From the IMG/VR virus record IMGVR_UViG_3300027842_000018, positions 1 to 28,964 of that record: a DNA stretch of 28,964 nucleotides; one strand, given 5' to 3'. The notes beneath the pieces were generated by a model, which saw only the letters and a program-made list of their open reading frames with translations, had not been told where the DNA came from and made no database searches. The position numbers and the translations under genes were made by a program. Of this stretch, positions 128 through 17,084 are shown piece by piece. Each line of letters starts with the position of its first letter. The first letter of the stretch is position 1. The stretch comes from a virus.

Positions 128-128
128 A

Positions 129-177: not shown

Positions 178-182
178 ATAAT

Positions 183-430: not shown

Positions 431-496
431 TTCGGGGAAGTAGAGCAGCGCGGCAAACGCTGGAAGCAGTGGGTTCGATTCCCACACCGCGAAAGG
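431..496 (+). pseudogene. tRNA-like relic, Cys(GCA)-like, no D arm and no CCA
   Basis: The element starts directly after the CCA of tRNA-Gly(GCC). It keeps a perfect T arm (GTGGG/CCCAC around TTCGATT) and a perfect 5-bp anticodon stem (CAGCG/CGCTG). The loop CGGCAAA would give anticodon GCA but has G at position 33 instead of U. Only about eight bases remain where the D arm should be, the acceptor has a G.G mismatch, and AGG replaces CCA. A normal tRNA-Cys(GCA) exists at 2114-2190, which suggests a decayed copy; a minimal tRNA is less likely. Confidence 0.5.
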
Positions 497-559
497 TGAG
501 CCCTTGCCGGGGACACTCTAGTAGCAAGGTAAATGGCAGCTTCACTTCTCTGATACTAT
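497..559 (+). other. tRNA spacer with one stem-loop
   Basis: CCTTGC (502-507) pairs with GCAAGG (524-529) around a 16-base loop. No tRNA or gene is seen in the rest of the spacer. Confidence 0.35.
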
Positions 560-635
560 TGGCATGTGGTCCAACTGGTAGGACGCCTGACTGTTAATCA
601 GGACGGTGTGGGTTCGAATCCCACTGTGCCAGCCA
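560..635 (+). tRNA. tRNA-Asn(GTT)
   Basis: The acceptor TGGCATG pairs with TGTGCCA, followed by G73 (usual for Asn) and encoded CCA. The anticodon stem CCTGA/TCAGG holds the loop CTGTTAA with anticodon GTT. The T arm is GTGGG/CCCAC around TTCGAAT. The next tRNA follows after a two-base AT spacer. Confidence 0.94.
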
Positions 636-637
636 AT

Positions 638-712
638 GTCTGTGTAGCTCAACGGAAAGAGCACTCGTCTACGAAACGAATGATAGGGGTTCGATTCCCC
701 TCATGGACTCCA
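638..712 (+). tRNA. tRNA-Arg(ACG)
   Basis: The acceptor GTCTGTG pairs with CATGGAC, followed by T73 and encoded CCA. The D stem is GCTC/GAGC. The anticodon loop CTACGAA gives ACG, which would need A34-to-inosine editing to read CGC and CGA. The outer anticodon-stem pair is mismatched. The sequence resembles tRNA-Arg(TCG) at 1191-1265, suggesting duplication. Confidence 0.92.
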
Positions 713-789
713 GGAGCTATCGCGTAGAGGCCCATCGCGCCCGACTGTCTATCGGGACTTCGCCGGTTCGAATCCGGTTAGCTCCGCCA
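713..789 (+). tRNA. tRNA-Asp(GTC)
   Basis: The acceptor GGAGCTA pairs perfectly with TAGCTCC, followed by G73 (usual for Asp) and encoded CCA at 787-789. The anticodon stem CCCGA/TCGGG holds the loop CTGTCTA with anticodon GTC. The T arm is GCCGG/CCGGT around TTCGAAT. The ATG of an HNH gene begins at the very next base, 790. Confidence 0.94.
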
Positions 790-1128
790 ATGTTTGATAA
801 TAAGGCATATCAAAAGGATTGGTATCAGAAGAATAAGGTAGACCTTATTCGAAGAGCCAGTCAAAGAAAAGCTGAGTTTAGAAAACTTGTTCGCAAAATT
901 ATAGAGGATTTGAAGAGGTCTCCTTGTATTGATTGCGGATTGAACTTCCCTCCAGAGTGTATGGATTTCGACCACGTGAGAGGAAAGAAAAAGTTTGATG
1001 TAGGACAAGCTGCTCGATTGATCGGGAGATTAGAACCTCTTTTAGTAGAGATCGAAAAATGTGAGCTTGTCTGTGCAAACTGTCATAGAATTCGTACTAA
1101 GAAAAGAAACGGCCCTATAGCTCAATGA
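790..1128 (+). CDS. HNH endonuclease nested between two tRNAs (copy A)
   Basis: This 112-residue protein is probably a site-specific nuclease of the HNH (treble-clef metal finger) class, likely a homing endonuclease. It has CxxC at 46/49, the catalytic-type Asp-His at 61-62 in MDFDHVRGKK, and CANCH at 95-99, after a basic helical N-terminus. I choose the ATG at 790; an upstream in-frame ATG would place the whole of tRNA-Asp inside the protein. This ATG abuts the tRNA-Asp CCA and has no Shine-Dalgarno sequence. The last five codons and the stop (TGA, 1126-1128) lie inside tRNA-Arg(TCT), which starts at 1111. It is a clear paralog of the gene at 2736-3098. Confidence 0.88.
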   Translation: MFDNKAYQKDWYQKNKVDLIRRASQRKAEFRKLVRKIIEDLKRSPCIDCGLNFPPECMDFDHVRGKKKFDVGQAARLIGRLEPLLVEIEKCELVCANCHRIRTKKRNGPIAQ

Positions 1129-1186
1129 ACAGAGTACTCCGTTTCTACCGGAAGGGTTCGGGGTTTGAGTCCCCGTAGGGCCTCCA
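1111..1186 (+). tRNA. tRNA-Arg(TCT)
   Basis: The acceptor GGCCCTA pairs perfectly with TAGGGCC, followed by T73 and encoded CCA. The anticodon loop TTTCTAC gives anticodon TCT. The T arm CGGGG/CCCCG has the loop TTTGAGT, where position 56 is T instead of the near-invariant C. Its first 18 bases also encode the end of the HNH gene upstream. Confidence 0.9.
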
Positions 1187-1190
1187 TTTT

Positions 1191-1265
1191 GGACTCATAG
1201 CACAATGCACAGTGTGCTCGTCTTCGAAACGAGTGATCGGGGTTGGAGTCCCCGTGGGTCCGCCA
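1191..1265 (+). tRNA. tRNA-Arg(TCG)
   Basis: The acceptor GGACTCA pairs with TGGGTCC, followed by G73 and encoded CCA. The D stem is GCAC/GTGT. The anticodon stem CTCGT/ACGAG holds the loop CTTCGAA with anticodon TCG. The T arm CGGGG/CCCCG has the loop TTGGAGT, where position 56 is G instead of C. A TTTT spacer separates it from tRNA-Arg(TCT). Confidence 0.9.
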
Positions 1266-1268
1266 TAC

Positions 1269-1357
1269 ATTGGAATGAGATGGTTCTCCCAACCCTCTTA
1301 TAAAGGGTCGCACTAGATCGGTGCTTGGCAAGAGTTCGATTCTCTTTTCCAATACCA
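1269..1357 (+). tRNA. tRNA with anticodon TAT and a long (class II) variable arm
   Basis: The acceptor ATTGGAA pairs perfectly with TTCCAAT, followed by A73 and encoded CCA. The anticodon stem ACCCT/AGGGT is perfect and holds CTTATAA, so the anticodon is TAT, reading AUA (Ile). The T arm is AAGAG/CTCTT around TTCGATT. The 21-base variable region (1309-1329) forms its own GCAC/GTGC stem, as in Leu, Ser or Tyr tRNAs and unlike any standard bacterial tRNA-Ile. The D arm is short (GAGA/TCTC around TGGT). Which amino acid it carries is open: Ile by anticodon, possibly Leu by shape. Confidence 0.7.
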
Positions 1358-1388
1358 TTGTAAATCTAAGACCAAAGGTCATTGATTT

Positions 1389-1799
1389 ATGTCGAATACA
1401 AAGAAGAGTGCTACTCTCGGAATGCCGCATGGCACAGCCGCGAATCGTTTACGAAAACTTTTATTATTTGACGCGCTAAAGCGTCATGCGGAAAATCGCT
1501 GTTACCGATGTCATAAGTTGATTTATGCGGTTGAGGATTTGAGTATAGAGCATATTAAGCCTTGGGAAGGTGTTTCGGCTGATTTGTTTTGGGATTTGAG
1601 TAACGTCGCTTTTTCTCACTTGCGGTGTAATGTTCCGCATTCGTATCAAGGTGGAGTCCCGTTACGTAAAGTAGGCCCTGAGGGCACAGCTTGGTGTACG
1701 GGCTGTAAGAAATTTGAGTCTGTAGAAAAGTTTTGTAAGAGTGAGACGCGATGGAACGGTTTACAGAAATATTGTCGATATTCAAGACCAGATAGATAG
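1389..1799 (+). CDS. HNH endonuclease with C-terminal zinc finger
   Basis: This 136-residue nuclease has C38xxC41, then SIEHIKPW with Glu-His at 54-55, Asn72 in WDLSN and H77/C80 in SHLRCN, giving a complete HNH core. A second metal module follows (WCTGC at 102-106, then a Cys near 129). That tail looks truncated: the usual second cysteine pair ends as YCRYSRPDR. Unlike the other two array HNH genes it has its own leader, with AAAGG ten bases before the ATG, and does not overlap a tRNA, though it stops three bases before tRNA-Lys(CTT). It is from a different HNH subfamily and is probably an independent mobile insertion. Confidence 0.88.
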   Translation: MSNTKKSATLGMPHGTAANRLRKLLLFDALKRHAENRCYRCHKLIYAVEDLSIEHIKPWEGVSADLFWDLSNVAFSHLRCNVPHSYQGGVPLRKVGPEGTAWCTGCKKFESVEKFCKSETRWNGLQKYCRYSRPDR

Positions 1800-1802
1800 T
1801 TT

Positions 1803-1878
1803 CGCTCTATAGCTCAACGGCTAGAGTACCCGCCTCTTAAGCGGTGGGATGAAGGTTCGAATCCTTCTAGGGCGACCA
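1803..1878 (+). tRNA. tRNA-Lys(CTT)
   Basis: The acceptor CGCTCTA pairs with TAGGGCG (one G-T), followed by A73 and encoded CCA. The D stem is GCTC/GAGT. The anticodon loop CTCTTAA gives CTT, with the outer stem pair mismatched. The T arm is GAAGG/CCTTC around TTCGAAT. Confidence 0.93.
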
Positions 1879-1880
1879 AT

Positions 1881-1954
1881 GGGCTTATCATCTAGAGGAA
1901 GGATACATCGTTCTCAGCGATGTAACGTGAGTTCGAATCTCACTAAGCCTACCA
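1881..1954 (+). tRNA. tRNA-Glu(CTC)
   Basis: The acceptor GGGCTTA pairs with TAAGCCT (G-T at the end), followed by A73 and encoded CCA. The anticodon stem CATCG/CGATG holds the loop TTCTCAG with anticodon CTC. The T arm is GTGAG/CTCAC around TTCGAAT. AT spacers flank it on both sides. Confidence 0.93.
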
Positions 1955-1956
1955 AT

Positions 1957-2032
1957 GGCCTGATCTTCTAACGGATCAGGATACTTCCCTTTCAAGGAAG
2001 AGATGAGGGTTTGATTCCCTCTCGGGCCACCA
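1957..2032 (+). tRNA. tRNA-Glu(TTC)
   Basis: The acceptor GGCCTGA pairs with TCGGGCC, followed by A73 and encoded CCA. The anticodon stem CTTCC/GGAAG holds the loop CTTTCAA with anticodon TTC. The T arm GAGGG/CCCTC has the loop TTTGATT, where position 56 is T instead of C. Confidence 0.92.
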
Positions 2033-2034
2033 AC

Positions 2035-2110
2035 AGGCGACTAGCTCAATGGCTAGAGCACTAGTCCTACAAACTAGGGGTTAAGGGTTCGAGTCCCTTG
2101 TTGCCTACCA
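2035..2110 (+). tRNA. tRNA-Val(TAC), C33
   Basis: The acceptor AGGCGAC pairs with GTTGCCT, followed by A73 and encoded CCA. The D stem is GCTC/GAGC. The perfect anticodon stem CTAGT/ACTAG holds the loop CCTACAA, giving anticodon TAC with C instead of U at position 33. The T arm is AAGGG/CCCTT around TTCGAGT. Confidence 0.88.
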
Positions 2111-2113
2111 CAT

Positions 2114-2190
2114 GCCGGGAATGTCGAAGCGGTCGAGACGACGGTCTGCAAAATCGTTCTTAGTGAGTTCGAGTCTCACTCCTGGCTCCA
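2114..2190 (+). tRNA. tRNA-Cys(GCA)
   Basis: The acceptor GCCGGGA pairs with TCCTGGC, followed by T73 (the Cys identity base) and encoded CCA. The anticodon stem ACGGT/ATCGT holds the loop CTGCAAA with anticodon GCA. The T arm is GTGAG/CTCAC around TTCGAGT. Confidence 0.93.
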
Positions 2191-2201
2191 GTTGTTTAGA
2201 T

Positions 2202-2277
2202 AGGAAAGTAAGATAGCGGCTAATCGGCCTGTCTCCAAAACGGTGCAACGGGGGTTCGAGTCCCTCCTTTCCTGCCA
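2202..2277 (+). tRNA. tRNA-Trp(CCA)
   Basis: The acceptor AGGAAAG pairs perfectly with CTTTCCT, followed by G73 (usual for Trp) and encoded CCA. The anticodon loop CTCCAAA gives anticodon CCA, with the outer stem pair mismatched. The T arm is GGGGG/CCCTC around TTCGAGT. Confidence 0.91.
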
Positions 2278-2389
2278 GAAACCACAGCACGAGCGAGCTT
2301 CGCAGTAATAAGCTCGCCCGGAGATTGAGAAAGACCATGACCTCATCACCCAAATCGTCTAGTAGCAGCAAATGCTACGATAGTACTTT
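2278..2389 (+). other. structured tRNA spacer with two strong hairpins
   Basis: GCGAGCTT (2293-2300) pairs perfectly with AAGCTCGC (2310-2317). GTAGCA (2362-2367) pairs with TGCTAC (2373-2378) around GCAAA. No U tract follows either hairpin, no tRNA fold with a T loop is seen, and there is no open reading frame with a ribosome binding site. It may direct processing or stabilise the precursor. Confidence 0.4.
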
Positions 2390-2479
2390 GGAAGGGTGAC
2401 GGAATCTGGTAACGTAACGGTTTGCTAAACCGGAGTCGAGTTCACGCTCGTCGGGGTTCAAATCCCCGCCCTTCCGCCA
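2390..2479 (+). tRNA. tRNA-Ser(GCT)
   Basis: The acceptor GGAAGGG pairs perfectly with CCCTTCC, followed by G73 (usual for Ser) and encoded CCA. The anticodon loop TTGCTAA gives anticodon GCT. A long variable arm marks it as class II. The T arm is CGGGG/CCCCG around TTCAAAT. Confidence 0.93.
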
Positions 2480-2482
2480 AAC

Positions 2483-2574
2483 GGAGAGCAGCGCTGAATG
2501 GTCGGCCACGGTCCCGAAAACCGAGACACGTCACTTAGTGGCGTGACAGAGTTCGATTCTCTGGCTCTCCTCCA
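2483..2574 (+). tRNA. tRNA-Ser(CGA), C33
   Basis: The acceptor GGAGAGC pairs perfectly with GCTCTCC, followed by T73 and encoded CCA. The anticodon loop CCCGAAA gives anticodon CGA with C instead of U at position 33. A long variable arm with a CACGTCA/TGGCGTG stem marks class II. The T arm is CAGAG/CTCTG around TTCGATT. Confidence 0.89.
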
Positions 2575-2576
2575 AT

Positions 2577-2652
2577 GGGTCGCAGGTGTTAGCGGCAACA
2601 TACCCGCCTTTTAAGCGACGGGTTGAGAGTTCAAGTCTCTCGCGGCCCACCA
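2577..2652 (+). tRNA. tRNA-Lys(TTT)
   Basis: The acceptor GGGTCGC pairs with GCGGCCC, followed by A73 and encoded CCA. The anticodon loop CTTTTAA gives anticodon TTT; the two outer stem pairs are mismatched. The T arm is GAGAG/CTCTC around TTCAAGT. Confidence 0.91.
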
Positions 2653-2660
2653 AATTTTAT

Positions 2661-2735
2661 TGGCTGTTAGTGTAATTGGTAGCACGCCACTCTTTGAAAG
2701 TGGAATTCTTGGTTCGAGTCCAAGACGGCCAGCCA
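2661..2735 (+). tRNA. tRNA-Gln(TTG)
   Basis: The acceptor TGGCTGT pairs with ACGGCCA, followed by G73 (usual for Gln) and encoded CCA at 2733-2735. The anticodon stem CCACT/AGTGG holds the loop CTTTGAA with anticodon TTG. The ATG of an HNH gene begins at the very next base, 2736. Confidence 0.94.
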
Positions 2736-3098
2736 ATGCTATGTTCTACGTGTGGTGTAAAAGAACGTCGGGTAGGGCAACGAACGTGTGCCGGATGCCA
2801 TAACGAATATCAAAAAGCGTATTATAAGACGCATCCGCGCAGTACAGTTGAGTCCCGAAAGAGACGTAAAGAACAAATTCGTGCTTTGATTGTTGCGAAG
2901 AAATCTGTTCCTTGCAAAGATTGCGGGCACTCATTCCCATCATATGTGATGGACTTTGATCACGTTCGTGGTAAGAAAAGATTCGATATCTCGGTTGCAG
3001 CCAGTCACCTTTGGAAGGTTACAACTGTAGAAGCAGAAATTGCAAAATGTGATGTTGTTTGTGCAAACTGCCACAGAATTCGTACATTTGGCCGATAG
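2736..3098 (+). CDS. HNH endonuclease nested between two tRNA-Gln genes (copy B)
   Basis: This 120-residue HNH nuclease is a paralog of the gene at 790-1128. The two share PCxDCG, FP, MDFDHVRGKK, EIxKC and VCANCHRIRT. Metal-site cysteines are at 60/63 and 109/112, Asp-His at 75-76 and H113. It adds an N-terminal Cys4 finger (C3, C6, C18, C21). I choose the ATG at 2736; an upstream in-frame ATG would read through tRNA-Gln(TTG). The start abuts the tRNA CCA and has no clear Shine-Dalgarno sequence. The stop TAG (3096-3098) is formed by bases 8-10 of tRNA-Gln(CTG). The role is inferred to be tRNA-array homing. Confidence 0.88.
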   Translation: MLCSTCGVKERRVGQRTCAGCHNEYQKAYYKTHPRSTVESRKRRKEQIRALIVAKKSVPCKDCGHSFPSYVMDFDHVRGKKRFDISVAASHLWKVTTVEAEIAKCDVVCANCHRIRTFGR

Positions 3099-3163
3099 TG
3101 CAATCGGTAGCACGGCGCTCTCTGAAAGCGCAAGTCTTGGTTCGAATCCAAGTCAGCCAGCCA
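3089..3163 (+). tRNA. tRNA-Gln(CTG)
   Basis: The acceptor TGGCCGA pairs with TCAGCCA apart from one C.A mismatch, followed by G73 and encoded CCA. The anticodon stem GCGCT/AGCGC holds the loop CTCTGAA with anticodon CTG. It has the same length as tRNA-Gln(TTG) and matches it at 62 of 75 positions by hand alignment, with compensatory changes at pairs 7-66, 27-43 and 29-41. Its first ten bases also encode the end of the HNH gene. It is the last tRNA of the array. Confidence 0.93.
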
Positions 3164-4936: not shown

Positions 4937-4964
4937 GTCTTCGATTCGCTATCGAGGATTAGAG

Positions 4965-5001
4965 AAGGCGAGAGCCCTATACTCTCGCCTTTTCGCTTTT
5001 T
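4965..5001 (+). terminator. rho-independent terminator
   Basis: AAGGCGAGAG (4965-4974) pairs perfectly over 10 bp with CTCTCGCCTT (4982-4991) around a 7-base loop, followed by the T-rich run TTCGCTTTTTAT. This is the clearest intrinsic terminator in the window. It separates the zinc-ribbon gene from the endonuclease VII-like gene. Confidence 0.85.
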
Positions 5002-5014
5002 ATAGGGAGAGTTT

Positions 5015-5365
5015 ATGGCAAAAGGATTCTGCAGTAAGTGTGGGGAACCCTTATCTAAGGAAAATGCTACACCGACGACTTTGAAGCGTATGACGGGTTT
5101 TTGTAATCCGTGTTATAACGCCGGGAAGCGGAAGTACAGATACGGAGTGACAAAAGAAAGTTTTGAGAAGCAACTAGAACTCCAAAAAGGGCTGTGTGCT
5201 ATTTGTGGAAGTGCAATGGCCCGACCTGAACAGGATCACAACCATGTTACTGGGGAGGCACGTGAGTTGCTATGCCATAGTTGTAATTGGTTGTTAGGTT
5301 GCTGTTTTGAAAACAAAGACATTCTTCTAGCTGCCGTAAGGTATCTAGAGAAACATCTGCCGTGA
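5015..5365 (+). CDS. recombination endonuclease VII-like nuclease
   Basis: This 116-residue protein matches the endonuclease VII family (phage T4 gp49 type), which cuts branched DNA such as Holliday junctions during packaging, and which also includes free-standing mobile nucleases. C61xxC64 and C87xxC90 make the zinc site. D74-H75-N76-H77 corresponds to the catalytic Asp-His, and N91 follows the last Cys, as in the family. The C-terminal helix NKDILLAAVRYLEKH is typical. Two extra N-terminal CxxC pairs (6/9 and 30/33) form another finger. A good GGGAG ribosome binding site precedes it, and it is the first gene after a terminator, so a promoter or read-through is needed. Either junction resolvase or mobile nuclease is possible. 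Confidence 0.88.
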   Translation: MAKGFCSKCGEPLSKENATPTTLKRMTGFCNPCYNAGKRKYRYGVTKESFEKQLELQKGLCAICGSAMARPEQDHNHVTGEARELLCHSCNWLLGCCFENKDILLAAVRYLEKHLP

Positions 5366-5481
5366 GTACGGCAGCAAAAATTACTCTTGTTGAGTTGGCC
5401 TGTGATATGGATGGATACTGGGGACTAATCTCCTGCCAGCCTGTGCCATATATGGACACCAGCAATAAGGGAAAAACATGA
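5362..5481 (+). CDS. putative 39-residue protein overlapping both neighbours
   Basis: A GTG-start frame begins within the stop of the endonuclease VII-like gene (GTGA, 5362-5365) and ends within the next start (ATGA, 5478-5481). It exactly fills the 112-base gap without an internal stop. The predicted peptide contains LVELACDMDGYWG and ends in NKGKT; two cysteines, no membrane segment. No Shine-Dalgarno sequence is obvious, so it would rely on coupling. A shorter version from the ATG at 5407 is possible. No family is recognised. Confidence 0.45.
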   Translation: MSTAAKITLVELACDMDGYWGLISCQPVPYMDTSNKGKT

Positions 5482-6263: not shown

Positions 6264-6608
6264 ATGGTTGCGCAACCGTCACTCTTCCACGAGATTATTA
6301 AGTACGTCACGATAGCTACCAGTCTTGGTGGCGCGGTGACGGGAGTTTATCATTTTGGTAAACGCGTTGTGGACTGGTTCATGGTGCCACGTAGAACGAT
6401 TTTGAAGTTGGCGACGAATCATCTTCCACATCTTCAGGCAACGTTGCAAGAGCATACAAATACCATGGTCGCAATGCAGTCTGACCTTCGAGATTTGGAT
6501 ACGAAAGTTTCGGGATACAGCGAACGTCTTGATGACACCAAGAAAGCTGTAAATTCCTTGCACGACGCTTTCATCCAGCACCTGGAGCGTAACGTCCATG
6601 CCGTTTGA
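6264..6608 (+). CDS. small membrane-anchored coiled-coil protein
   Basis: This 114-residue protein has a hydrophobic N-terminal segment at about 11-29 (IIKYVTIATSLGGAVTGVY), then a basic patch (VPRRTILK) and a long helical, heptad-like region (about 65-108: MQSDLRDLDTKVSGYSERLDDTKKAV). That layout occurs in small phage membrane proteins such as some holin-like and spanin-like proteins. There is no lipobox, endolysin or partner gene nearby to confirm a lysis role. AGGGG precedes the ATG at a suitable distance. Its end overlaps the next gene by 11 bases. Confidence 0.75.
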   Translation: MVAQPSLFHEIIKYVTIATSLGGAVTGVYHFGKRVVDWFMVPRRTILKLATNHLPHLQATLQEHTNTMVAMQSDLRDLDTKVSGYSERLDDTKKAVNSLHDAFIQHLERNVHAV

Positions 6609-6771
6609 TAGCAAAGCGCAACAACGATATATGTATGCGCATCCTGAGATTCTTGGGGAAAAGGGTTTGAAAGAGTGGAGCGGCAGCACAGATTTTAAGA
6701 AGCTTCCTGAGCACGTCCACGAACACTCGAATGCGTCCTATAAGATGGTGCAGGCCGCGCGAAAGAAGTAA
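6598..6771 (+). CDS. small conserved phage protein (PFDSKAQ type)
   Basis: This 57-residue protein begins MPFDSKAQQRYMYAHPEI and contains a Lys/Glu-rich middle and a C-terminal helix ending in ARKK. The N-terminal pattern P-F-x-S-x-A-Q-x-x-x-M-x-A-x-x-P-E-I is a recurrent small phage protein motif whose function, as far as I know, is not established. It overlaps the end of the upstream coiled-coil gene in another frame and is followed ten bases later by the Cys-rich gene. No metal site or membrane segment is seen. The motif and the tight packing make a real gene very likely. Confidence 0.85.
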   Translation: MPFDSKAQQRYMYAHPEILGEKGLKEWSGSTDFKKLPEHVHEHSNASYKMVQAARKK

Positions 6772-6780
6772 GGGGATTTT

Positions 6781-7347
6781 ATGGCTTTAGTTCAAGTTGA
6801 GCGATGGGCACTCGGGTGGGTTGGTGGTAAGGATACAAAGAATCAGCCGAAATCTTGTTTTAACTGCCCATTGTTTTACATAAACCAGAAGCGATGCCAG
6901 ATCATAGGCCCGGACATTATCATAGATAGCATCAAGGTAAAGGGTGAGGTATACACTCCTGTTTGCATTTATCAGAATGGGGGTCTTCCTCGTGTGGTTG
7001 CGGATTCGGATGCTATTTACAACGCGACTTTGCAGGGGCCGGATAAAGCAGACCAAGCTGGTCTAGAGTGGGCTAAGGGTCCAGGCACGAATTGTAACGG
7101 TTGTGCCGGTGGGGCGCCTTGCAAGCATTTTGTGGCAGATGACGAGAAGGGTATAGACGGCATTTGCAATGTGATGGAGAAGTCAGATAACGAAGTGGAC
7201 TGGGACGACTGTTGTGATGCCCATAACGGTGAGTCTATTTCGTGGCGTAAGGCTCAGGACATTCTTAACAGTCCCGATAAGAAGAAGGAAAGTTCAACAC
7301 TTAAGGCGTTGGCCGAAGGACTAGATCATGGCGGAGAAGAAGCATAA
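6781..7347 (+). CDS. Cys-rich protein with two Cys4 modules (metal or Fe-S binding candidate)
   Basis: This 188-residue protein has a first cysteine set at C26-x2-C29, C39 and C62 and a second at C105-x2-C108, C114 and C129, with an extra C144-C145 in an acidic stretch (VDWDDCCDAH). Each set follows a CxxC...C...GxC-like plan, as in phage proteins resembling high-potential iron-sulfur modules; zinc binding is an alternative. No catalytic motif is visible. AGGGG lies upstream of the ATG. The C-terminus overlaps the His-rich gene by 20 bases. Gene order suggests a minor virion or maturation role, which is inference only. Confidence 0.78.
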   Translation: MALVQVERWALGWVGGKDTKNQPKSCFNCPLFYINQKRCQIIGPDIIIDSIKVKGEVYTPVCIYQNGGLPRVVADSDAIYNATLQGPDKADQAGLEWAKGPGTNCNGCAGGAPCKHFVADDEKGIDGICNVMEKSDNEVDWDDCCDAHNGESISWRKAQDILNSPDKKKESSTLKALAEGLDHGGEEA

Positions 7348-7594
7348 GTTTCATACGACTACCGTTAAGCATCACAAAGACGGCAGTCATACAACCACCC
7401 ACCATCATGAAGATGGCGATCACATGAACGTGGAGTACGCTACCGGAGATCATGATGGCATGATGGACGGAATGATGCACCACACCTCGGAGCCGGATGA
7501 GGAAGAGATGGCTGCTGATAAGGGTGAGCACGGTATTCCTGACCAGATCGCTGAGAAGGCTATGATAGCCGGACCTCGACCGACAGGAGCGTAA
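7328..7594 (+). CDS. His/Asp-rich small protein, metal-binding candidate
   Basis: This 88-residue protein has about 18 histidines, many in KHHKDGSHTTTHHHEDG and in MMHHTSEPDEEE, with abundant Asp, Glu and Met. The composition suggests divalent metal binding. Similar short His-rich proteins occur beside virion genes in other tailed phages to my knowledge, without assigned function. The N-terminal half looks like a beta hairpin with alternating His/Thr, and the C-terminal half (AADKGEHGIPDQIAEKAM) is helical. The 20-base overlap with the Cys-rich gene and one-base gap to the next gene indicate one translation unit. Confidence 0.78.
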   Translation: MAEKKHKFHTTTVKHHKDGSHTTTHHHEDGDHMNVEYATGDHDGMMDGMMHHTSEPDEEEMAADKGEHGIPDQIAEKAMIAGPRPTGA

Positions 7595-7595
7595 T

Positions 7596-7787
7596 ATGGC
7601 CGCAAAGAATCCTTCACTGTATCGAGCGCTCCATAAACTTCGTAAGGGTGGTTTGCACCGAGCCTTGGGTGTTGCCGAGGGAGAGAAGATTCCAGCAGAG
7701 AAGCTGGAGGCTGCTCGTCACTCGAAGAACGCTCATGTTAAGCACATGGCAAACTTCGCCCACACAATGAAATCATGGAAGCACTAA
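7596..7787 (+). CDS. small basic phage protein
   Basis: This 63-residue, strongly basic protein has the segment GGLHRALGVAEGEKIPAEKL followed by ARHSKNAHVKHMANFAHTMKSW. The G-x-L-H...LG...G-x-K-I-P...KL...S-x-N plan recurs in small phage and prophage proteins of unknown function. The basic helices would suit nucleic-acid or virion-surface binding, which is inference. It starts one base after the previous stop, and its 3' end overlaps the next gene by 13 bases. Confidence 0.8.
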   Translation: MAAKNPSLYRALHKLRKGGLHRALGVAEGEKIPAEKLEAARHSKNAHVKHMANFAHTMKSWKH

Positions 7788-7993
7788 ACAAAATTTTAGA
7801 CGCGCTGATCAATAAGTTTCACACCATTATCGGCAGCGTGTGGATGGCCGCATTGCTTATCTATCGTTGGAAGACGGGTAATGATGTCGGCCCAGGCATG
7901 GCAAATTGTACGTATGCGTTCTTCGGATTCTTACTAGGCCACGCGTATACGTACCAAGTACATCCTGATCGTCCTGATCAGAATCAGCAGTAA
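7775..7993 (+). CDS. small membrane protein with two predicted segments (holin candidate)
   Basis: This 72-residue protein has hydrophobic stretches at about 18-31 (IIGSVWMAALLIYR) and 43-60 (ANCTYAFFGFLLGHAYTY), joined by a short polar loop, and a charged C-terminus rich in Asp, Pro and Gln. Two short membrane helices with a charged tail is compatible with a class II holin, but the first helix is short and no endolysin lies next to it. The start overlaps the upstream basic-protein gene. Nothing else in the sequence decides its role. Confidence 0.72.
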   Translation: MEALNKILDALINKFHTIIGSVWMAALLIYRWKTGNDVGPGMANCTYAFFGFLLGHAYTYQVHPDRPDQNQQ

Positions 7994-8024
7994 GGCCGAG
8001 CAGGGGACCCGCAAGGGGCGGCTA

Positions 8025-8058
8025 GTGATCGTAGGTGCTCTGCCAACATAGCGATCAC
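8025..8058 (+). promoter_or_regulatory. leader hairpin before the serine protease gene
   Basis: GTGATCG (8025-8031) pairs perfectly with CGATCAC (8052-8058), ending ten bases before the protease ATG and next to its AGGTT ribosome binding region. No U tract follows. It may control processing or translation of the protease. Confidence 0.4.
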
Positions 8059-8068
8059 AGGTTAGAAC

Positions 8069-9019
8069 ATGAAGCTTGCCAACGTTCTTCTGGCATTGAT
8101 TCTTTCTCTTCCACTTGCTGTCAAGGCAAGCTCTATCCAGCCTCCTAAGGGTTTTGAGGGTGAAGTCTACAAAGCGACCTTCGCTCTGTACGAACACCGG
8201 GGAAAGCAGGAACGATTCATCTGCACGACTGAGGCCTACGAAACAATAGTCGGCGGATATCATTTGATCGGCGCCGGGCACTGTATCGATCCTAAAGCGG
8301 ATTCATTTTCGGTCGCGGAAGATATCGGCGGACCCGAAACTCCTGTGACTGTGATTAAGCACGAGCAGGACAAGGATGCCGATCTCGCGATCTTCGAAAT
8401 GAAGACCGATAAGGCCTACCCCGTAATCCCACTAGGTACCATCGACGGTGAGCATGTAGGCGATAGCGTTATCAATGTCAATTTTGCTGTTGGTATGGCT
8501 AAGCAGTTGAGTGAAGGAAAGATTTCTAGCGGTGTAATCCCCGCAGGTGATGATGGGGATACGGATGTATTTCTGGCGCAGATTTTTGGGGCCGGAGGTT
8601 CATCGGGCTCCGCTGTTATATCCGCAAACACGCACAAGATCATCGGTATCCTTATTTATGGATTCAATGATGATTACGAGGGTTTGCCGGTACCACTGAA
8701 TATCGGTGCAGGTGTTGAACCCATCGATAAGGTCCAGGACTTTTTGAAGCGTGTTATTAAACCGGCTCCAGTGATTTCTGATACGGAGTTTAAACAAAAG
8801 TTCGGACCAGATCACTCTTTCATGTTGACTGTGCATGGCCCTAACCCAACATTTACAACGGGTGGGCACACGTTCCAGGCTGAGATTATGGGTTTTGAAC
8901 TTGAGGACTCCCTTTATTACGATGTCCCTGTCTATATCGAGAAGACCATAACAGGTGACTATCGTCTAGTCTCTACCCAGGACCCAAACTTAGGTGTGAG
9001 TGTTAAATTGATCTCATGA
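8069..9019 (+). CDS. exported trypsin-like serine protease
   Basis: This 316-residue protein has an N-terminal signal peptide (Lys3, hydrophobic 4-18, A-x-A-type site near residue 20). Chymotrypsin-fold motifs follow: H71 in GAGHC, D105 in DADLAIF, and S179 in GGSSGSAV with the Gly-x-Ser-Gly nucleophile context. The order His-Asp-Ser is that of S1/trypsin-2 peptidases. C52 and C72 could form the usual disulfide beside the His. Residues about 240-316 form an extra C-terminal beta-rich part of unknown role. The signal peptide points to export from the infected cell or periplasmic action, which is not what a head-maturation protease needs. Its stop overlaps the phosphatase start (ATGA). Confidence 0.87.
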   Translation: MKLANVLLALILSLPLAVKASSIQPPKGFEGEVYKATFALYEHRGKQERFICTTEAYETIVGGYHLIGAGHCIDPKADSFSVAEDIGGPETPVTVIKHEQDKDADLAIFEMKTDKAYPVIPLGTIDGEHVGDSVINVNFAVGMAKQLSEGKISSGVIPAGDDGDTDVFLAQIFGAGGSSGSAVISANTHKIIGILIYGFNDDYEGLPVPLNIGAGVEPIDKVQDFLKRVIKPAPVISDTEFKQKFGPDHSFMLTVHGPNPTFTTGGHTFQAEIMGFELEDSLYYDVPVYIEKTITGDYRLVSTQDPNLGVSVKLIS

Positions 9020-9645
9020 AATCTTCGCACTATATTCGGCCCGTAGCTTATTTCGTGCGTCATGGGGAAACCGATCTTAACGATGAGAACATCTTTCGTG
9101 GAGATTTGGACGTATCCCTTAACGACACAGGCAAGAAACAGGCTCAGCAGATAGTGCAGTTCTTCAAGAACAAAGACTTGGGTCGCATTTATGGTAGTGA
9201 TCGAAAGCGCGTAATCGAGACTCTGGACCCATTGGCGAAAGAGAAGAAGATGAAGGTTGTCGTTATAGACGATCTTGAGTCTCTGAATACAGGAGACTTT
9301 TCGGGTAAGCCAAAATCGAAAGAAAACCTGAAGGCGCTGAAGTGGTATAACGAGCATCCAGAAGTCATGATTCCGGGCGGCGAAACCGTTCGAGGGTTCC
9401 GTGAGCGCGTTGACCCGGTCTTGATGAAGGTTATTCACGTTGGAGACGACAATGGTATTCCGACTGTTGCCGGTGTCCATGGTTCGGTTCTAAAGGAGCT
9501 TTATCGAGTTCTTTATGGAACTATCGAGAGCAAAGCCCGAGTAGAGCCCGGTGGGATCGTTGCAATTTTTAAAGGCAGTCATGGATACGAAGCCATTCCG
9601 GTGCTCGGAGAGAAAGACCGGGAAGACATTCGTCCTGGGAGCTAA
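9016..9645 (+). CDS. histidine phosphatase (phosphoglycerate mutase-like)
   Basis: This 209-residue protein belongs to the histidine phosphatase superfamily, which forms a phosphohistidine intermediate. R15-H16-G17 (FVRHGETDLN) carries the nucleophilic His, R63 sits in SDRKR, E88 is the likely general acid, and H155 in GVHGS completes the phosphate pocket. The region around GGETVRGFRERV (121-132) is also typical. The length fits the small branch of the family. It has no signal peptide, so it acts in the cytoplasm or virion, unlike the protease it is coupled to. The substrate (sugar phosphate, nucleotide or phosphoprotein) cannot be told from sequence. A TAATG overlap leads to the next gene. 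Confidence 0.9.
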   Translation: MKSSHYIRPVAYFVRHGETDLNDENIFRGDLDVSLNDTGKKQAQQIVQFFKNKDLGRIYGSDRKRVIETLDPLAKEKKMKVVVIDDLESLNTGDFSGKPKSKENLKALKWYNEHPEVMIPGGETVRGFRERVDPVLMKVIHVGDDNGIPTVAGVHGSVLKELYRVLYGTIESKARVEPGGIVAIFKGSHGYEAIPVLGEKDREDIRPGS

Positions 9646-9926
9646 TGATGGCGCAGACAGTTGAAGAGATTCTAGCCGGTGCTAAGAAGACGTTGGCCGG
9701 GGCCGATGCGTTGTCGGCAAAAGTAGAGGCTGAGAAGCCGAAGCCAGATGCACCGCCTAAAGCAGCCGGGCCGCTGGGAGCAGTTACCAGCAATATGCAG
9801 CACGAATATTCAAATGCGCCGTACAAGCTGGCGGCGCCAAAGAAACCAGCAGCCAAGCCGAAGGGTGAATTGAGCAAGTCCCTCGATTGGAACGCTCAGC
9901 AGCGTAAGGTGGCTGAAGCGCAGTAA
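9645..9926 (+). CDS. Ala/Lys/Pro-rich small protein before the terminase
   Basis: This 93-residue protein starts at 9645 in a TAATG overlap (an ATG at 9648 is the alternative). The N-terminal 35 residues look helical (VEEILAGAKKTLAGADAL); the rest is low-complexity with Lys, Pro and Ala, ending in a polar helix (SLDWNAQQRKVAEAQ). It lies eight bases before the large terminase, where small terminase subunits often sit, but it lacks a recognisable DNA-binding domain and is short for that role. Function unknown. Confidence 0.72.
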   Translation: MMAQTVEEILAGAKKTLAGADALSAKVEAEKPKPDAPPKAAGPLGAVTSNMQHEYSNAPYKLAAPKKPAAKPKGELSKSLDWNAQQRKVAEAQ

Positions 9927-9934
9927 GGAACCCA

Positions 9935-12190
9935 ATGTCCATATCCGTCGAGGAAGCAGCCCGTCTAGGTTTTAAGTTAACAGAGACGGAAGCGAAGGTA
10001 ACAACTCGCGAGACTCTTGAAAACAACTTCCTAGACCGTATGAAGGCGTTGGATGCGGGTAATCAAGCTCTAGCTATTACCCCAGAAGCGCGTGGAAGCC
10101 AGGAAAAGGTTTATGGGCCTACCGATGAGTGGGTTCAGTTTGTTCTTGGACTGAAGCGCAAGGAAGACGGAACGTATCCGTGGTATTTATCTGAGGCCGC
10201 AAATTGGCATCACTTAGGCCAAACCTTTGTAGGCCGAGAGTGGCTGGGACCAGAATCTGAAGAAGAGGCCGAGGACGAAGAGGAAGAGATCGCCCGTCGT
10301 GCCGGTAAGGACAAGAAAAAGGCCAAGAAGAAAGAGCCGAATTCTGTTCCTGTCCCATATCGAGCCCAGATTCTGAAAGAGGAACCGTCCTTTGTAGGAT
10401 GGTTGGGCTACCGCGATAAGGCCCGCAAAGATTTATTTTGGCTTGGTGTCTCCGTTCTTAAGAAGAACTGGGTTTCTGAGACGCACCAGCAAGTCTGCGA
10501 TCAGTTTGTGCAGAAGAACTTCGACGGTGTCTATCACCCAGGATATAACCTAACACACGTCCAGAGTGCTTTCGATACTCAGAAGCGCTTTGATGGCGAG
10601 GGTCGTCCAACAAAAGAAATGATTCTGTTGGATTCCCGAGGATTTTTCAAATCGACTATTGATGGTGTCGATTGCATCCAGTGGATGTTGAATGTTCCTG
10701 ATATTCGAATCATGATCGTTACGGCCACGAAAGAGTTGGCCCGTGGCTTCATGAAAGAAATCAAGAACTATTTGTTCTATCAGCCGCACAACGAAGAAAG
10801 CACGTCTCTGGATTTGCATCTACTTTTTCCAGATTACATTCTTTCGAAGGCGCCGTCTGAGAACAACACCCCGTTGTTGCTTCGTGTGCGCAAGCATTGG
10901 CAGAAGGATAAGAGCGTTTCGATCTCCTCGATGGAGTCGGGACAGGCCGGTGCTCACTGCGATGTGCTGAAGCGCGATGACTGCACGAACGAACAGAATT
11001 GTACACCCGGCACACCTAAGCCGACATTAGCGTTATTGAACTCGAAGATTAACACCACGGGCAACATCCCTATGCCGTGGGGCTTTATCGACAACATCGG
11101 GACTCGTTATCGAGCCGATGACTGGTTCGGACAGCGTATTGCGTTGCTGTCAGTCAGCCCGGCGAAGTATTTCTGCCGAGCTTGCTGGGTTGTAAAAGAA
11201 CAATACAAAGCCGTTCCTTTGAAGCAGCTTACGGAAGAAATGGTTGTTCTTAACTTTCCGAAGCTTTCAAAGACAGCTTTCCAAGATTTGCGGATGAAGT
11301 TGGCGGTAGACGAGATGGTCTTCCGTTGCCAACAGCTTAACGAACCCGCTATGGAAGCTGAGGAAGACAAGTTCAAGATCGCGTTCACGATTGAAGAACT
11401 TCGTCGGTCCACAATTCACCCTTCAGCCGCTGCCAAGGAAGGCAACATCTACATTGCCTGGGATACTGCTTATTCCAAGAACAAGCAGAGTGATTACTCA
11501 GCAGGCGCAGCCGCAAGACGGTTTAGACGTGCCGATGGACGTTGGGGATTAGAAATCCTTGAAATCCGTCATGGCAAGTGGACATCGTCCGAGTTGGCCC
11601 AACAGATTGCTCAGATGGATAAGGACTGGAACCCAGTTCAGACCATTATTGAGAAGACAATTAACGCGGAGCTTTTAGAGCTTCGACTTCAGGAATGGTA
11701 CAAGCGTTTGGATTTCTTGCCACGAATTTGGTGGAGAGAACCGAACCCGGAACCGGACGCGAAGCGAAACAGAATCAAGCAGCTTGAGATTTTGTTGGTT
11801 GCGGACCTGTTGAAGTTTGTTTTCGGAGTAGCCAAAAAGCAGTTGGACTGGATCGATCCGACGTTCGATCAGTTGACCAGCTATACGGGCGAGAGAAAGA
11901 ACAAGGGTCGTAAAGACGATATCCCGGACGCGATGTCGATGTTGTGGTACTTCTTGCCACTTCATGTTCCGACACAACAAGAGCTTGACTTGATGCAGCA
12001 GCGTCAAGAGTTGTTGTGGCAGGCACACGCTCGTCAGGTTTGGCAAAAAGCAATGTTTGGCGGTTGGGGAACACAGAAGCCACAACAGCCTTCTTTAATA
12101 CCTAACATGGCTCCGCCAACAGCGGACCAGCGTCGTGGTGCTATGAGCGATGCAGGAAAAAGATTGTTAGGACCAGGATTTAGAATCTAA
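9935..12190 (+). CDS. terL: terminase large subunit (packaging ATPase and nuclease)
   Basis: This 751-residue protein drives DNA packaging into the procapsid. The Walker A-like motif is DSRGFFKST at about 232-240, with Phe where many terminases have Gly. A Walker B-type LKRDD is at about 345-349. The C-terminal RNase H-like nuclease shows AWDTAYSKNKQSDYSAG (first Asp about 509), a middle acidic segment (IIEKTINAELLEL) and a final KDDIPDAMSML (about 660-668). It is longer than the usual 450-600 residues; part of the excess is an acidic-then-basic insertion at about 105-140 (SEEEAEDEEEE, DKKKAKKK). AAGGA precedes the ATG. It couples to portal by TAATG. No separate small subunit is recognisable. 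Confidence 0.93.
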   Translation: MSISVEEAARLGFKLTETEAKVTTRETLENNFLDRMKALDAGNQALAITPEARGSQEKVYGPTDEWVQFVLGLKRKEDGTYPWYLSEAANWHHLGQTFVGREWLGPESEEEAEDEEEEIARRAGKDKKKAKKKEPNSVPVPYRAQILKEEPSFVGWLGYRDKARKDLFWLGVSVLKKNWVSETHQQVCDQFVQKNFDGVYHPGYNLTHVQSAFDTQKRFDGEGRPTKEMILLDSRGFFKSTIDGVDCIQWMLNVPDIRIMIVTATKELARGFMKEIKNYLFYQPHNEESTSLDLHLLFPDYILSKAPSENNTPLLLRVRKHWQKDKSVSISSMESGQAGAHCDVLKRDDCTNEQNCTPGTPKPTLALLNSKINTTGNIPMPWGFIDNIGTRYRADDWFGQRIALLSVSPAKYFCRACWVVKEQYKAVPLKQLTEEMVVLNFPKLSKTAFQDLRMKLAVDEMVFRCQQLNEPAMEAEEDKFKIAFTIEELRRSTIHPSAAAKEGNIYIAWDTAYSKNKQSDYSAGAAARRFRRADGRWGLEILEIRHGKWTSSELAQQIAQMDKDWNPVQTIIEKTINAELLELRLQEWYKRLDFLPRIWWREPNPEPDAKRNRIKQLEILLVADLLKFVFGVAKKQLDWIDPTFDQLTSYTGERKNKGRKDDIPDAMSMLWYFLPLHVPTQQELDLMQQRQELLWQAHARQVWQKAMFGGWGTQKPQQPSLIPNMAPPTADQRRGAMSDAGKRLLGPGFRI

Positions 12191-14316
12191 TGGCTGAATT
12201 GGAAAAGGCAAGCAGCAGCGAACTTGATGCATCTCTAGCTGCGAAGTTTATAGACCCAGCTTCCGAGATCACTGTCGAGAGTTTGATCAAGGATGCCGAT
12301 ACAGATACGATCCTATTCCAAGATCGCGAAGCGGTCATGCTCGTGATCAAGGATGCGGAACGCGCTGATCAGTGGTTGAACATCAACCAGTGGCCTAGCG
12401 GTTGGACTCTTGCCGATACCATTTACCAGTCACCGGCTGCGAACTCCGCCTTCGATGGCGGTCAGGTTGCGCAGGCCAACGTTCCGAAGTTTACGGTTTC
12501 GAATCACATCAGTTCGATTGTGCCGAAGATTATGGGTGGTATCTTCTACGAGAAGCCACCGTTCGAGCTTCGCCCACGGCCCGGAACAGACAAAGGCACT
12601 GTTGATGCGAAGAGATCGCTATTTACAACTCAGCTTGACCTGATGCACTTCGAGGAAGAGACCGAACTAGCCATTGAACATATGGCGTTGTTCGGAACCT
12701 TGATCATGAAGTGGGGTTACACCGAGTATAAAGAGAAGCGCAAGCGTTACGTGCGCAAGGGCGAGCAGCAACGGTACGTACACGCAACCGGCCAAGTCGA
12801 GATGATCGATACGGCGGAGTCGGATGAATTCGAAGTAGTTAACGATAATGTCGTTCAGTCGCACCCCTGGATTAAGTTTTGTGATATTCGTACTGTTCTT
12901 GTAGACCCAGGAACACGTGTTGGTGATATCCGTAAAGCGAAGTGGGTTGTTTATCGAGACTACGCGACATATGAAGACCTGAATCGTTTGCGTGGTGTCG
13001 AGGGTTATAAGATTCCTTCGGAAGCCGAGCTTAAGAATCTGTTCTTGAGCAAGCCTACGTCGGGGCCGGACAACATCACCCTTACCATTCCCGAGGGAAT
13101 GTACGGGTACTTGCAGCATGCGTTGCCACGTAGCTACAAGACAAGTGCGAACCCGCTCGATCTACCTCTTGAGATTTTAGAGCGTTGGGATAATGAGCGC
13201 GTTATCGTGATTTTGTCGTTTAACGGGCACAATCTTTTGATCCGTAATGAGGTAAACCCTTACCACAAGATTCCGTTCCTATCGGCCAACTGGCGTAATA
13301 TCCCGGATTGTTTCTATGGACAAGGTCTAGGAATACTTTTGGGACCGGAGCAGTTGATTGAGCAAGGGGTAACGAACCTTTCCCTTGATCTGTTGGCTTT
13401 CTGTTTGCAGCCTCCTGCGGTTCGTAAGAAAGGGTTCAACACGCTACAGCAGAACCAGCGATGGTCTCTTGGCGGCATTATCGACGTTGATGAGGATGTG
13501 GACAAGGCCTTCAGATTTTTGGAGATGCCTACGCCTCCTGCGGCAGCTTTTACAGCCATTCAGATGAGTCAAGCTGCGAGCGCGGCTTCTTCTGGTGCTA
13601 ACGAACAAGTTGTTCAAGGCGCTAGTTCGTCTGCGGGTCGAGGTACCGGCATGCGTAGCGGAACCGGCGCTGCGGCTGTTATTCAGGCCAACGCCTCCCG
13701 TCTAGATAGTCCGATGGGACGTTTCATTCGTCAGGTATTCGAGCCATGGCTCCAGATCATGGATGAGTTGAACAACGATCTGTTGCCGACATCCGTATTG
13801 AAGCGAGTTCTTGGCGAAGAGCTAGGACCGAAATTTAAGATTGATCATATTCAGTTCCGAGAAGCCGAACTTGAGTTTGAAGTATTGGCCGGAGCCCACC
13901 TGGGCGCTAAGAAAGAAATGGCGCAGTTTTTGCCGATCATGGTGCAGTTGATGACTGCGCCAGCCTTTAACACTGGCCTTCAGCAAACATTCATGAAGTG
14001 GGATGTTGTTGCTATCTTCAAGGCGTTCGCAGAAGCTGCAGGCTGGAAGTATAGCCAGAACTTCTTGGTGAAGATGACCGACGAAGAGAAGAAGCAAGCT
14101 CAACAGAATCAGCCAGCCGCTTTGCAAGAGAAGCAGGCTCAGGCACAACAAGTTCAACAGAACCAGAAGTTCCAGCAAGATCAACAGAAGGAAGCACAGG
14201 AACAACTGGGTAAGGCGCAAAATGAAGTAATGCGAGGCGCCGTCGAACACGCTCTTAATTCGGAAGTGACTGGGGAGCCGAGTAACGTCGGCTTCGGAAG
14301 CACAACCGACCTCTAA
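12190..14316 (+). CDS. portal protein
   Basis: This 708-residue protein should form the dodecameric head-tail channel through which DNA is packaged. Support comes from its place directly after the terminase, its length (podovirus portals are often 600-750), and features such as an N-terminal region with QWPSGWTLADTIY, a central beta-rich body with repeated Trp/Arg motifs, the stretch QGASSSAGRGTGMRSGTGAA around residue 480-500 (Gly/Ser-rich loop near the channel), and an extended helical, Gln-rich C-terminus (about 640-685: QQNQ, KQAQAQQVQQNQ) suited to a barrel or core-binding crown. Start is by TAATG overlap with the terminase. Confidence 0.87.
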   Translation: MAELEKASSSELDASLAAKFIDPASEITVESLIKDADTDTILFQDREAVMLVIKDAERADQWLNINQWPSGWTLADTIYQSPAANSAFDGGQVAQANVPKFTVSNHISSIVPKIMGGIFYEKPPFELRPRPGTDKGTVDAKRSLFTTQLDLMHFEEETELAIEHMALFGTLIMKWGYTEYKEKRKRYVRKGEQQRYVHATGQVEMIDTAESDEFEVVNDNVVQSHPWIKFCDIRTVLVDPGTRVGDIRKAKWVVYRDYATYEDLNRLRGVEGYKIPSEAELKNLFLSKPTSGPDNITLTIPEGMYGYLQHALPRSYKTSANPLDLPLEILERWDNERVIVILSFNGHNLLIRNEVNPYHKIPFLSANWRNIPDCFYGQGLGILLGPEQLIEQGVTNLSLDLLAFCLQPPAVRKKGFNTLQQNQRWSLGGIIDVDEDVDKAFRFLEMPTPPAAAFTAIQMSQAASAASSGANEQVVQGASSSAGRGTGMRSGTGAAAVIQANASRLDSPMGRFIRQVFEPWLQIMDELNNDLLPTSVLKRVLGEELGPKFKIDHIQFREAELEFEVLAGAHLGAKKEMAQFLPIMVQLMTAPAFNTGLQQTFMKWDVVAIFKAFAEAAGWKYSQNFLVKMTDEEKKQAQQNQPAALQEKQAQAQQVQQNQKFQQDQQKEAQEQLGKAQNEVMRGAVEHALNSEVTGEPSNVGFGSTTDL

Positions 14317-16052: not shown

Positions 16053-17084
16053 ATGCCAGCAGGTGGACCAAATCCGTCAGCAGCTAACGTAGGAAACGTA
16101 TTAACCGCGCAGGCGATCTTGTTCGATAAGGAACTGATCCCCAACCTAAAGGGCGAAACGGACGCCTTTGTAGCATGCGCGGAACGACGTGTGCAGCCTT
16201 TGCACATGGGCGTAAACCGTACCTTCTTCCAGTACAACACGCTAACTGGTGATACAACCCAGCGAGCAGACGGTACTGTAGGATCGCCGGAATTGATCAC
16301 CCAGTTGAGCGCACCTGCTCAGGTGGGCGAGTGGAACGACTACACAAACTTCTCGGCTTTCGCAATCGCGGCAGCTATCGATGAGCTTGTGGGCAACTCG
16401 GCGGTTGAGTTGGGCTATCAGGCCGGTCAGTCCATTAGTGAACTTTACAGCGCGGTAGCTGATTCCGCTTCCACAGTTGACGGCAACGTTAACCAGAGCG
16501 GTTTGCTATCGGCCCCTTACACACTCGATTTGGCAACACTTCGAGAAATGAAGCAGCAGTTGGTAAGCCACAACGTGCTTCCTTGCAAGAAGGGGAAGTT
16601 CATGGGCGCAGTATCGCCTAACGTGCTAGGTGATATCTACAACGCCACAACAGTCAACGATTCTATCGCTGATTTGTTGAAGTTCCAACAGATTGAGAAG
16701 TTCGACAAGATTGCTGGCTCGGACCAGACACAGGATATCGAACTCCCAGGCACAAACATAATCCTGCGTCAGACACCGTTCGTTACGACAACCGCCAATT
16801 ACCAGTCAACAGGTAAGACAGCGTACCGTACGTACGTGTTTGGCAACTACGCCATGATCGGCGTGTGGCTCGAAGTTCCGGGCGACACCGACCTTGACGA
16901 AGGCGATTGGCGAACAATTCAGTGCTACGTCGTAACAGACGCCCCACAGAGTGCGTTCGATCCAACAGGCACAATTGGTGGATGGGCCTCCTACAAGTTC
17001 CACCAGACAGTTACATTGCCGCCAGCGACAGGCTTGAATACACAGCGTATTCGTTGGATTGACAGCGTACCTGCAGTGCAGTAA
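16053..17084 (+). CDS. major capsid protein, HK97 fold (N4 gp56-like group)
   Basis: This 343-residue protein is the likely main shell component. It has the N-terminal helix region (LTAQAILFDKELIPNLK), a Thr/Arg-rich E-loop-like section (TGDTTQRADGTVGSP), then an alternating helix-strand pattern (NFSAFAIAAAIDEL, GYQAGQSISELYSAVADSAS) and the LATLREMKQQLVSHNVLP helix leading to GKFMGAVSPNVLGDIY, as in the spine helix and P domain of HK97-type proteins. The length fits. It follows the scaffold gene after a GAGG ribosome binding site and is followed by a 13-bp hairpin. Assignment to the N4 gp56 group is my reading, less certain than the capsid role. Confidence 0.85.
   Translation: MPAGGPNPSAANVGNVLTAQAILFDKELIPNLKGETDAFVACAERRVQPLHMGVNRTFFQYNTLTGDTTQRADGTVGSPELITQLSAPAQVGEWNDYTNFSAFAIAAAIDELVGNSAVELGYQAGQSISELYSAVADSASTVDGNVNQSGLLSAPYTLDLATLREMKQQLVSHNVLPCKKGKFMGAVSPNVLGDIYNATTVNDSIADLLKFQQIEKFDKIAGSDQTQDIELPGTNIILRQTPFVTTTANYQSTGKTAYRTYVFGNYAMIGVWLEVPGDTDLDEGDWRTIQCYVVTDAPQSAFDPTGTIGGWASYKFHQTVTLPPATGLNTQRIRWIDSVPAVQ

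Follow-up and report, generated by a model that had tools for sequence, protein, structure and literature searches.

Histidine phosphatases hold the phosphate between a nucleophilic histidine, two arginines and a second histidine, with a glutamate (E82 in the riboflavin enzyme HFP) donating the proton, and this proton donor is said to vary between families of the superfamily (PMC12051542). Branch 1 of the superfamily (the PspA/CobC/PhoE type) is the closest described relative of a phosphatase encoded upstream of the terminase in the soil phage DNA analysed here, which shares with it the fold, the RHG motif, R65 and H155, and differs from it in having serine in place of the glutamate donor, in belonging to a phage-specific clade and in its linkage to portal genes. 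A family of phage proteins, PHROG 12933, matches both this phosphatase (7.5e-14) and related domains fused to portal proteins; its function is unassigned, and PHROGs gives neither a function nor the portal link. Enzyme domains fused to portal and MuF proteins of phages ('polyvalent proteins') are believed to travel in the particle and to be injected (PMC5512222). The same arrangement of an enzyme fused to a portal in a head operon is found in five relatives of our locus (L327, L328, L331, L333, and L151), whereas the enzyme studied here is separate, and the word 'phosphatase' is absent from the main text of PMC5512222. Among the papers available to our literature search, none links a histidine phosphatase with a portal protein. 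The capsid-targeted internal proteins of T4, such as Alt, may offer an analogy both for an enzyme carried in the virion and for a short peptide common to proteins of a head operon. The neighboring gene encodes a protease that shares the protease-domain fold, the His-Asp-Ser triad and an export-type N-terminus with the periplasmic HtrA/DegS (S1C) proteases, and differs from them in a C-terminal beta domain of its own, which in relatives is a short aromatic tail.

Gene layout and the pairing of protease and phosphatase

The window (the whole stretch of DNA that was analysed, an IMG/VR virus record of 28,964 bases) carries 20 tRNA genes at its left end, followed by a string of small genes and then by the genes for the large terminase subunit (TerL), the portal, the head protein, and further proteins, with every gene discussed here on the + strand (Table 1). 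The tRNA cluster (54-3163) is interspersed with small ORFs, and several small ORFs of the window resemble HNH endonucleases (e.g., 703-1128, 1389-1799, 2676-3098, 5015-5365). A first-pass annotation of this DNA had described an exported serine protease and a histidine phosphatase as coupled genes directly before the terminase operon. Both ORFs were recovered with their ATGA overlap (9016-9019), and they do precede the terminase genes, although a 93-residue ORF lies in between. The product of the small gene immediately 5' of the protease could be holin-like, an unproven assignment, and searches of Pfam and PHROG gave no match for it.

Table 1. Coordinates of the window genes and of the portal-phosphatase fusion ORFs in related loci
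Feature	Sequence	Coordinates	Strand	Basis or remark
Small protein, 57 aa, SKAQQRYMYAHPEI	Window	6598..6771	+	C-terminal end is a variant of the shared peptide (HEHSNASYKMVQ)
Putative two-transmembrane small protein	Window	7775..7993	+	Family alignment; immediately 5' of protease
Putatively exported HtrA/DegS-like serine protease, 316 aa	Window	8069..9019	+	Pfam Trypsin_2, AF2 model, invariant triad
Branch-1 histidine phosphatase, 209 aa	Window	9016..9645	+	Pfam His_Phos_1, AF2 model, residue counts, tree
Small protein with HEYSNAPYKLA, 93 aa	Window	9645..9926	+	Between phosphatase and TerL; overlaps phosphatase stop codon
Terminase large subunit (TerL)	Window	9935..12190	+	phrog_38, 3.4e-32
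SU10-like portal protein	Window	12190..14316	+	PF23899, 5e-19
Major head protein	Window	16053..17084	+	phrog_1357, 3.2e-05
Portal-phosphatase fusion, HK97 type	L327	3225-5477		TerL upstream
Portal-phosphatase fusion, HK97 type	L328	1933-4065		S78 prohead protease downstream
Portal-phosphatase fusion, HK97 type	L331	2-2068		5' end runs off contig
Portal-phosphatase fusion, HK97 type	L333	672-2870		S78 prohead protease downstream
Portal-phosphatase fusion, Mu type, 1085 aa	L151	3498-6755		Terminase before, MuF-like gene after

The ATGA overlap is kept in L002 and L029, while in L072 the protease stop and the phosphatase start abut. Among 29 portal clusters (made at 90% identity and counted only where enough upstream sequence was available), the phosphatase occurs upstream of TerL in 20 and the protease in nine, with both in five, the phosphatase only in 15, the protease only in four, and neither in five (Fisher p 0.40). 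The 13 contigs of at least 80 kb, which hold at most one copy of each gene, demonstrate a similar distribution (phosphatase in 10, protease in eight, both in five; Fisher p 0.23), and in two large contigs more than 10 kb separate the protease from the phosphatase. An obligate pair was therefore rejected, as the presence of the two genes is uncorrelated and each is also found alone. Their adjacency nevertheless recurs: of 65 phosphatase clusters gathered from all loci, 50 had sufficient upstream sequence, and in 10 of these a protease lies at most 2.3 kb upstream on the same strand. The 10 include phages whose terminase is quite different (L296, L300) or whose phosphatase is of the proline type (L317, L323). 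The term 'coupled' thus describes a recurrent adjacency in very different phages, not an association in presence; the two are frequent neighbors, protease first, and neither needs the other.

A histidine phosphatase without the glutamate proton donor

The phosphatase ORF matches Pfam His_Phos_1 (1.4e-31), and its AF2 model (pLDDT 88.4) is most similar to the phosphoserine phosphatase PspA (4ij6; Z 22.5, 2.6 A over 189 residues), followed by PhoE, the riboflavin HFP, and CobC. Judged from these comparisons of sequence and predicted fold, it is a branch-1 member of the histidine phosphatase superfamily, but is not classed as a PspA, CobC or PhoE. The phage phosphatases have no hydrophobic N-terminal stretch, unlike the protease. 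The RHG nucleophile motif (R15, H16) is present in all 23 aligned phage phosphatases, and the window enzyme has the full set of pocket residues (R15, H16, R65, H155). The first-pass annotation had listed His16, Arg63 and His155 as catalytic; both histidines are invariant across the 23 phage rows, whereas position 63 varies and the conserved catalytic arginine is R65. It had also missed that the canonical proton-donor glutamate is replaced, by Ser89 in the window, where positions 155-157 read H-x-S. When 80 cellular and 23 phage relatives were aligned, glutamate occupied the donor position in 78 of the cellular sequences and in none of the phage sequences (S in 12, P in eight, A in three), and position 157 was serine in 23/23 phage rows versus 3/80 cellular ones. 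The same holds for 80 further viral loci, among which glutamate was found in none of the 79 rows covering the donor position (P 29, A 23, S 22, T 5; one row not covered). Loss of the glutamate donor is, by these alignments, not exclusive to phages: in a profile-selected set of about 32 acidobacterial relatives, this position is asparagine in 12 cases and proline in one.

Loss of catalytic residues in relatives had been named beforehand as one observation that would count against the two enzymes. In the 80 further viral loci, R15, H16, R65 and H155 are all kept in 74 of 77 complete domains; none of the 77 domains covering R65 (truncated ones excepted) has a change at H16 or R15/R65, and H155 is replaced by serine in three portal fusions only. 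The protease triad is likewise kept throughout its complete relatives (see below).

In a maximum-likelihood tree of 103 domains, all phage phosphatases, the portal fusions among them, form one group (support 100/99) that also takes in a single bacterial sequence, L194. This bacterial histidine phosphatase (1468-2127), from the same phylum as L151, has the phage-type RPWNLG sequence at the acid position, and it is possible that L194 represents the source of the phage clade or a capture event. Two other candidates were set aside, namely the 'histidine phosphatase domain' of PseuP_222, whose neighbors are repressor and replication genes of an early region and not a head module, and the human-gut record MT836799, in which the glutamate is present, marking a cellular-type phosphatase. 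The phosphatase is thus a phage-specific variant of a known enzyme fold, tied to portals again and again. Between the window and its nearest relative, L002, the phosphatase is 92% identical, TerL 89%, the portal 90%, and the protease 71%, and the phosphatase has the lowest dN of the genes compared (0.047, versus 0.067 each for TerL and the portal and 0.236 for the protease); dN and identity are given because saturation of synonymous changes makes dN/dS unusable for the protease and the phosphatase.

In some phages (L046, L065, L070, L106, and relatives) the phosphatase carries a fused Cys-rich domain (C-x2-C ... CC), which is N-terminal in some phages and C-terminal in L329. Similar Cys-rich proteins also stand alone near head genes, as does the one encoded at 6781-7347 in the window.

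A protease with an export-type N-terminus

The protease ORF matches Pfam Trypsin_2 (5.3e-11), and its AF2 model (pLDDT 83.8) is nearest to the protease domains of HtrA/DegS (Foldseek E about 1e-12), aligning with HtrA-family structures over residues of about 19-231 (VIA-align Z 22-24); sequence matches to DegS are weak. In keeping with the signal peptide claimed by the first-pass annotation, the N-terminus combines a lysine-containing start with a hydrophobic stretch, whose mean hydropathy is 2.8 over 11 residues, and with a cleavage site of the VKA|S type. A charged start with a hydrophobic stretch recurs in all 15 aligned family members, with cleavage-type sites present. A signal peptide of this type would predict export to the periplasm. 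The triad H71-D105-S179 is invariant in the 15-row family alignment and in 28/28 complete relatives, as are C52 and C72 in the same 28 rows. These cysteines flank the active-site histidine and may correspond to chymotrypsin-type disulfides, which would fit an oxidising compartment.

Two C-terminal types occur in the 15-row alignment, a beta-rich domain (about 235-316 in the window; also in L002, L028, L029, L034, and L108) and a short aromatic tail (L047, L056, L064, L072, L087, L088, and L100). A PDZ domain was sought in the window protease and Pfam gave no match, while the structural comparison barely covered the C-terminal part. An exported protein of L042 looks by eye like a stand-alone version of the C-terminal domain, a likeness rejected because the profile search was not significant (E 5.2). 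A capsid-maturation protease was also rejected, given the export-type N-terminus and a Pfam result of Trypsin_2 only, with no S78 match.

A small two-transmembrane gene is commonly found 5' of the protease in the syntenic region, and where the protease is missing its slot is filled by other proteins with a hydrophobic N-terminus. Searches of 15 contigs for an endolysin near the cassette with SLT_3 and Phage_lysozyme gave nothing above the cut-off, so it is from its neighborhood that the protease may be linked to lysis. L085 alone encodes a membrane-anchored SLT_3 protein in the same region as the cassette. In G408 the protease is preceded by a small exported HExxH protein (SprT-like at 0.0076 only), and L012, which has no serine protease, encodes a similar one (2027-2422); together these suggest that such phages may tend to carry an exported protease of one type or another. 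A related phage, L257, also encodes a small exported protein with this motif (4948-5370), and the HExxH proteins of L012 and L257 are possible metalloproteases. The window protease is itself a plausible late envelope enzyme of ordinary type, in keeping with the host-envelope role proposed for it earlier.

Portal linkage, the shared peptide, and possible roles

In four loci, a single ORF encodes an HK97-type portal (PF04860 Phage_portal, 1e-68 to 1e-93), a linker and a C-terminal phosphatase (His_Phos_1, about 1e-27 to 1e-29). A fifth fusion, L151, lies on a contig binned in an Acidobacteriaceae MAG and joins a Mu-type portal (PF06074 Portal_Mu, 1.6e-42) to a phosphatase (4.5e-32). All five fused domains likewise lack the glutamate acid. 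Among 396 genomes of the phylum of L151, it is the sole fusion among 14 Mu-type portals, and none was found among 12 HK97-type portal matches; a search of viral contigs for an L151-like domain also found none. Where the phosphatase is separate, its gene lies in L332 immediately 5' of a P22-type portal; in L316 it overlaps the end of an SU10-type portal gene and is followed by a head protein, and it is near a head-protein gene in L274, L303, L317, and L325 (the L274 call being by likeness to the head protein of the window), while in several phages it directly abuts TerL. Fusion to two unrelated portal families and location in head modules with two further portal types cast doubt, for the phosphatase, on the first-pass statement that neither enzyme is part of normal virion assembly, and the same enzyme with four portal families is hard to explain by chance hitch-hiking. 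Comparison of the window with L012 demonstrates that TerL has been swapped (6864-9335, 823 aa, in L012, only distantly related to the 751-aa TerL of the window) and that its neighbors, the phosphatase, the small tag protein and the portal, have been retained.

Several small proteins of the pre-terminase region that otherwise differ have a short peptide in common, roughly [HN]E[YF]SxA[PS]Y[KS][LM][AV] (about HEYSxAPYxLA). This peptide occurs in the window in the 93-residue protein before TerL and at the C-terminus of the 57-residue protein. Elsewhere it is found in small ORFs arranged in tandem (L008, L028, L029), at the beginning of a Cys-rich protein (L080, L107), and also N-terminally in the phosphatase of L058, L064, L083, and L094, with a good ribosome-binding site at the upstream phosphatase start in L083 and L094. 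A matrix built from 15 pre-TerL proteins scored about 40 distinct ORFs above 17.4, the second-best score of 35,000 shuffled ORFs, with a best score of 27.2. The strict motif is confined to this region in the window and in the whole 96.7-kb L012 contig. The peptide may be a docking or targeting tag, perhaps one that docks on a common head partner.

The explanation that we favor, with confidence that falls a little short of even, is that a phosphatase associated with the head or portal and a separate exported late protease are encoded side by side, as two late genes with separate jobs that happen to stay adjacent. Within the particle, the phosphatase would stay on the portal or close to it, through fusion in some phages and through non-covalent recruitment in the window phage, and would either act during packaging or, slightly more likely, enter the cell with the DNA and there remove a phosphoryl group from a host substrate. 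H16 would accept this group within the pocket of R15, R65 and H155. As the usual glutamate acid is absent, the substrate would be expected to bring a good leaving group or its own proton, which would make phospho-histidine, an acyl phosphate or a phosphoanhydride candidates. The protease would be exported late to the periplasm and cleave envelope or released cell proteins, aiding exit or freeing virions from debris.

Since its clade sits in head-assembly operons and is fused to portals in unrelated phages, the phosphatase probably belongs to the virion or to its assembly and is not stray cargo. A domain fused in this way to a portal would be expected to lie inside the head, near the portal C-terminus; because the window phosphatase is unfused, its own presence in the particle is one that we infer. 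The number of fusions seen, five only, counts against a portal or virion role, and the change of H155 to serine in three of them suggests that activity there may be weak or lost.

An enzyme of assembly or packaging, with the terminase-portal complex or a nucleotide product of packaging as its target and no entry into a new host, would suit a phosphatase that always lies near TerL, portal or head genes. Roughly a third of the clusters (9/29) lack the gene 5' of TerL, which makes this unlikely and also indicates that the gene is not essential in all, and we know of no packaging step that needs a histidine phosphatase. The view of the first-pass annotation, in which both enzymes are accessory cargo with no structural role, the phosphatase acting on host metabolism or signaling (possibly a defence signal) and the protease on the envelope, agrees with the patchy presence of both genes and with their intact catalytic residues. 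PADLOC gave no match for the phosphatase, which is therefore no known defence protein itself, and the weak protease matches (0.0004 and worse) concern the generic trypsin domain only, so that a known defence protein was rejected; the proposed action on defence second messengers found no specific support in this analysis. The portal fusions, the constant head-module location, and a phosphatase that changes more slowly than TerL or the portal in the nearest pair render the accessory-cargo view doubtful. That the phosphatase is catalytically dead, serving as a phosphate- or nucleotide-binding module or a structural portal plug, would fit the loss of the glutamate throughout and of H155 in three fusions, but is quite improbable given that H16 and R15/R65 are invariant and H155 is kept outside those fusions, as a dead enzyme is unlikely to stay fully conserved.

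A head- or portal-associated phosphatase can also be extended to a bolder proposal, which we regard as speculative and improbable in its full form: that a phage-specific, acid-less phosphatase family resides at the portal, as a fusion or as a partner, in many tailed phages that are unrelated to each other, enters the cell along with the DNA and strips a labile phosphoryl group from the host (phospho-histidine or a nucleotide-type signal), and that the shared peptide recruits the phosphatase and other small proteins to the head. The putatively exported protease raises a testable question of its own, namely how soil phages exit their hosts. For the phosphatase, the data give PHROG 12933, a family without a name, a proposed role that can be put to the test, as an enzyme linked to the portal, which is the only vertex by which DNA exits the head. 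Should the virion contain this phosphatase, it would represent a novel type of phage enzyme that acts early, and it could reveal a phosphorylated host molecule that phages must remove first.
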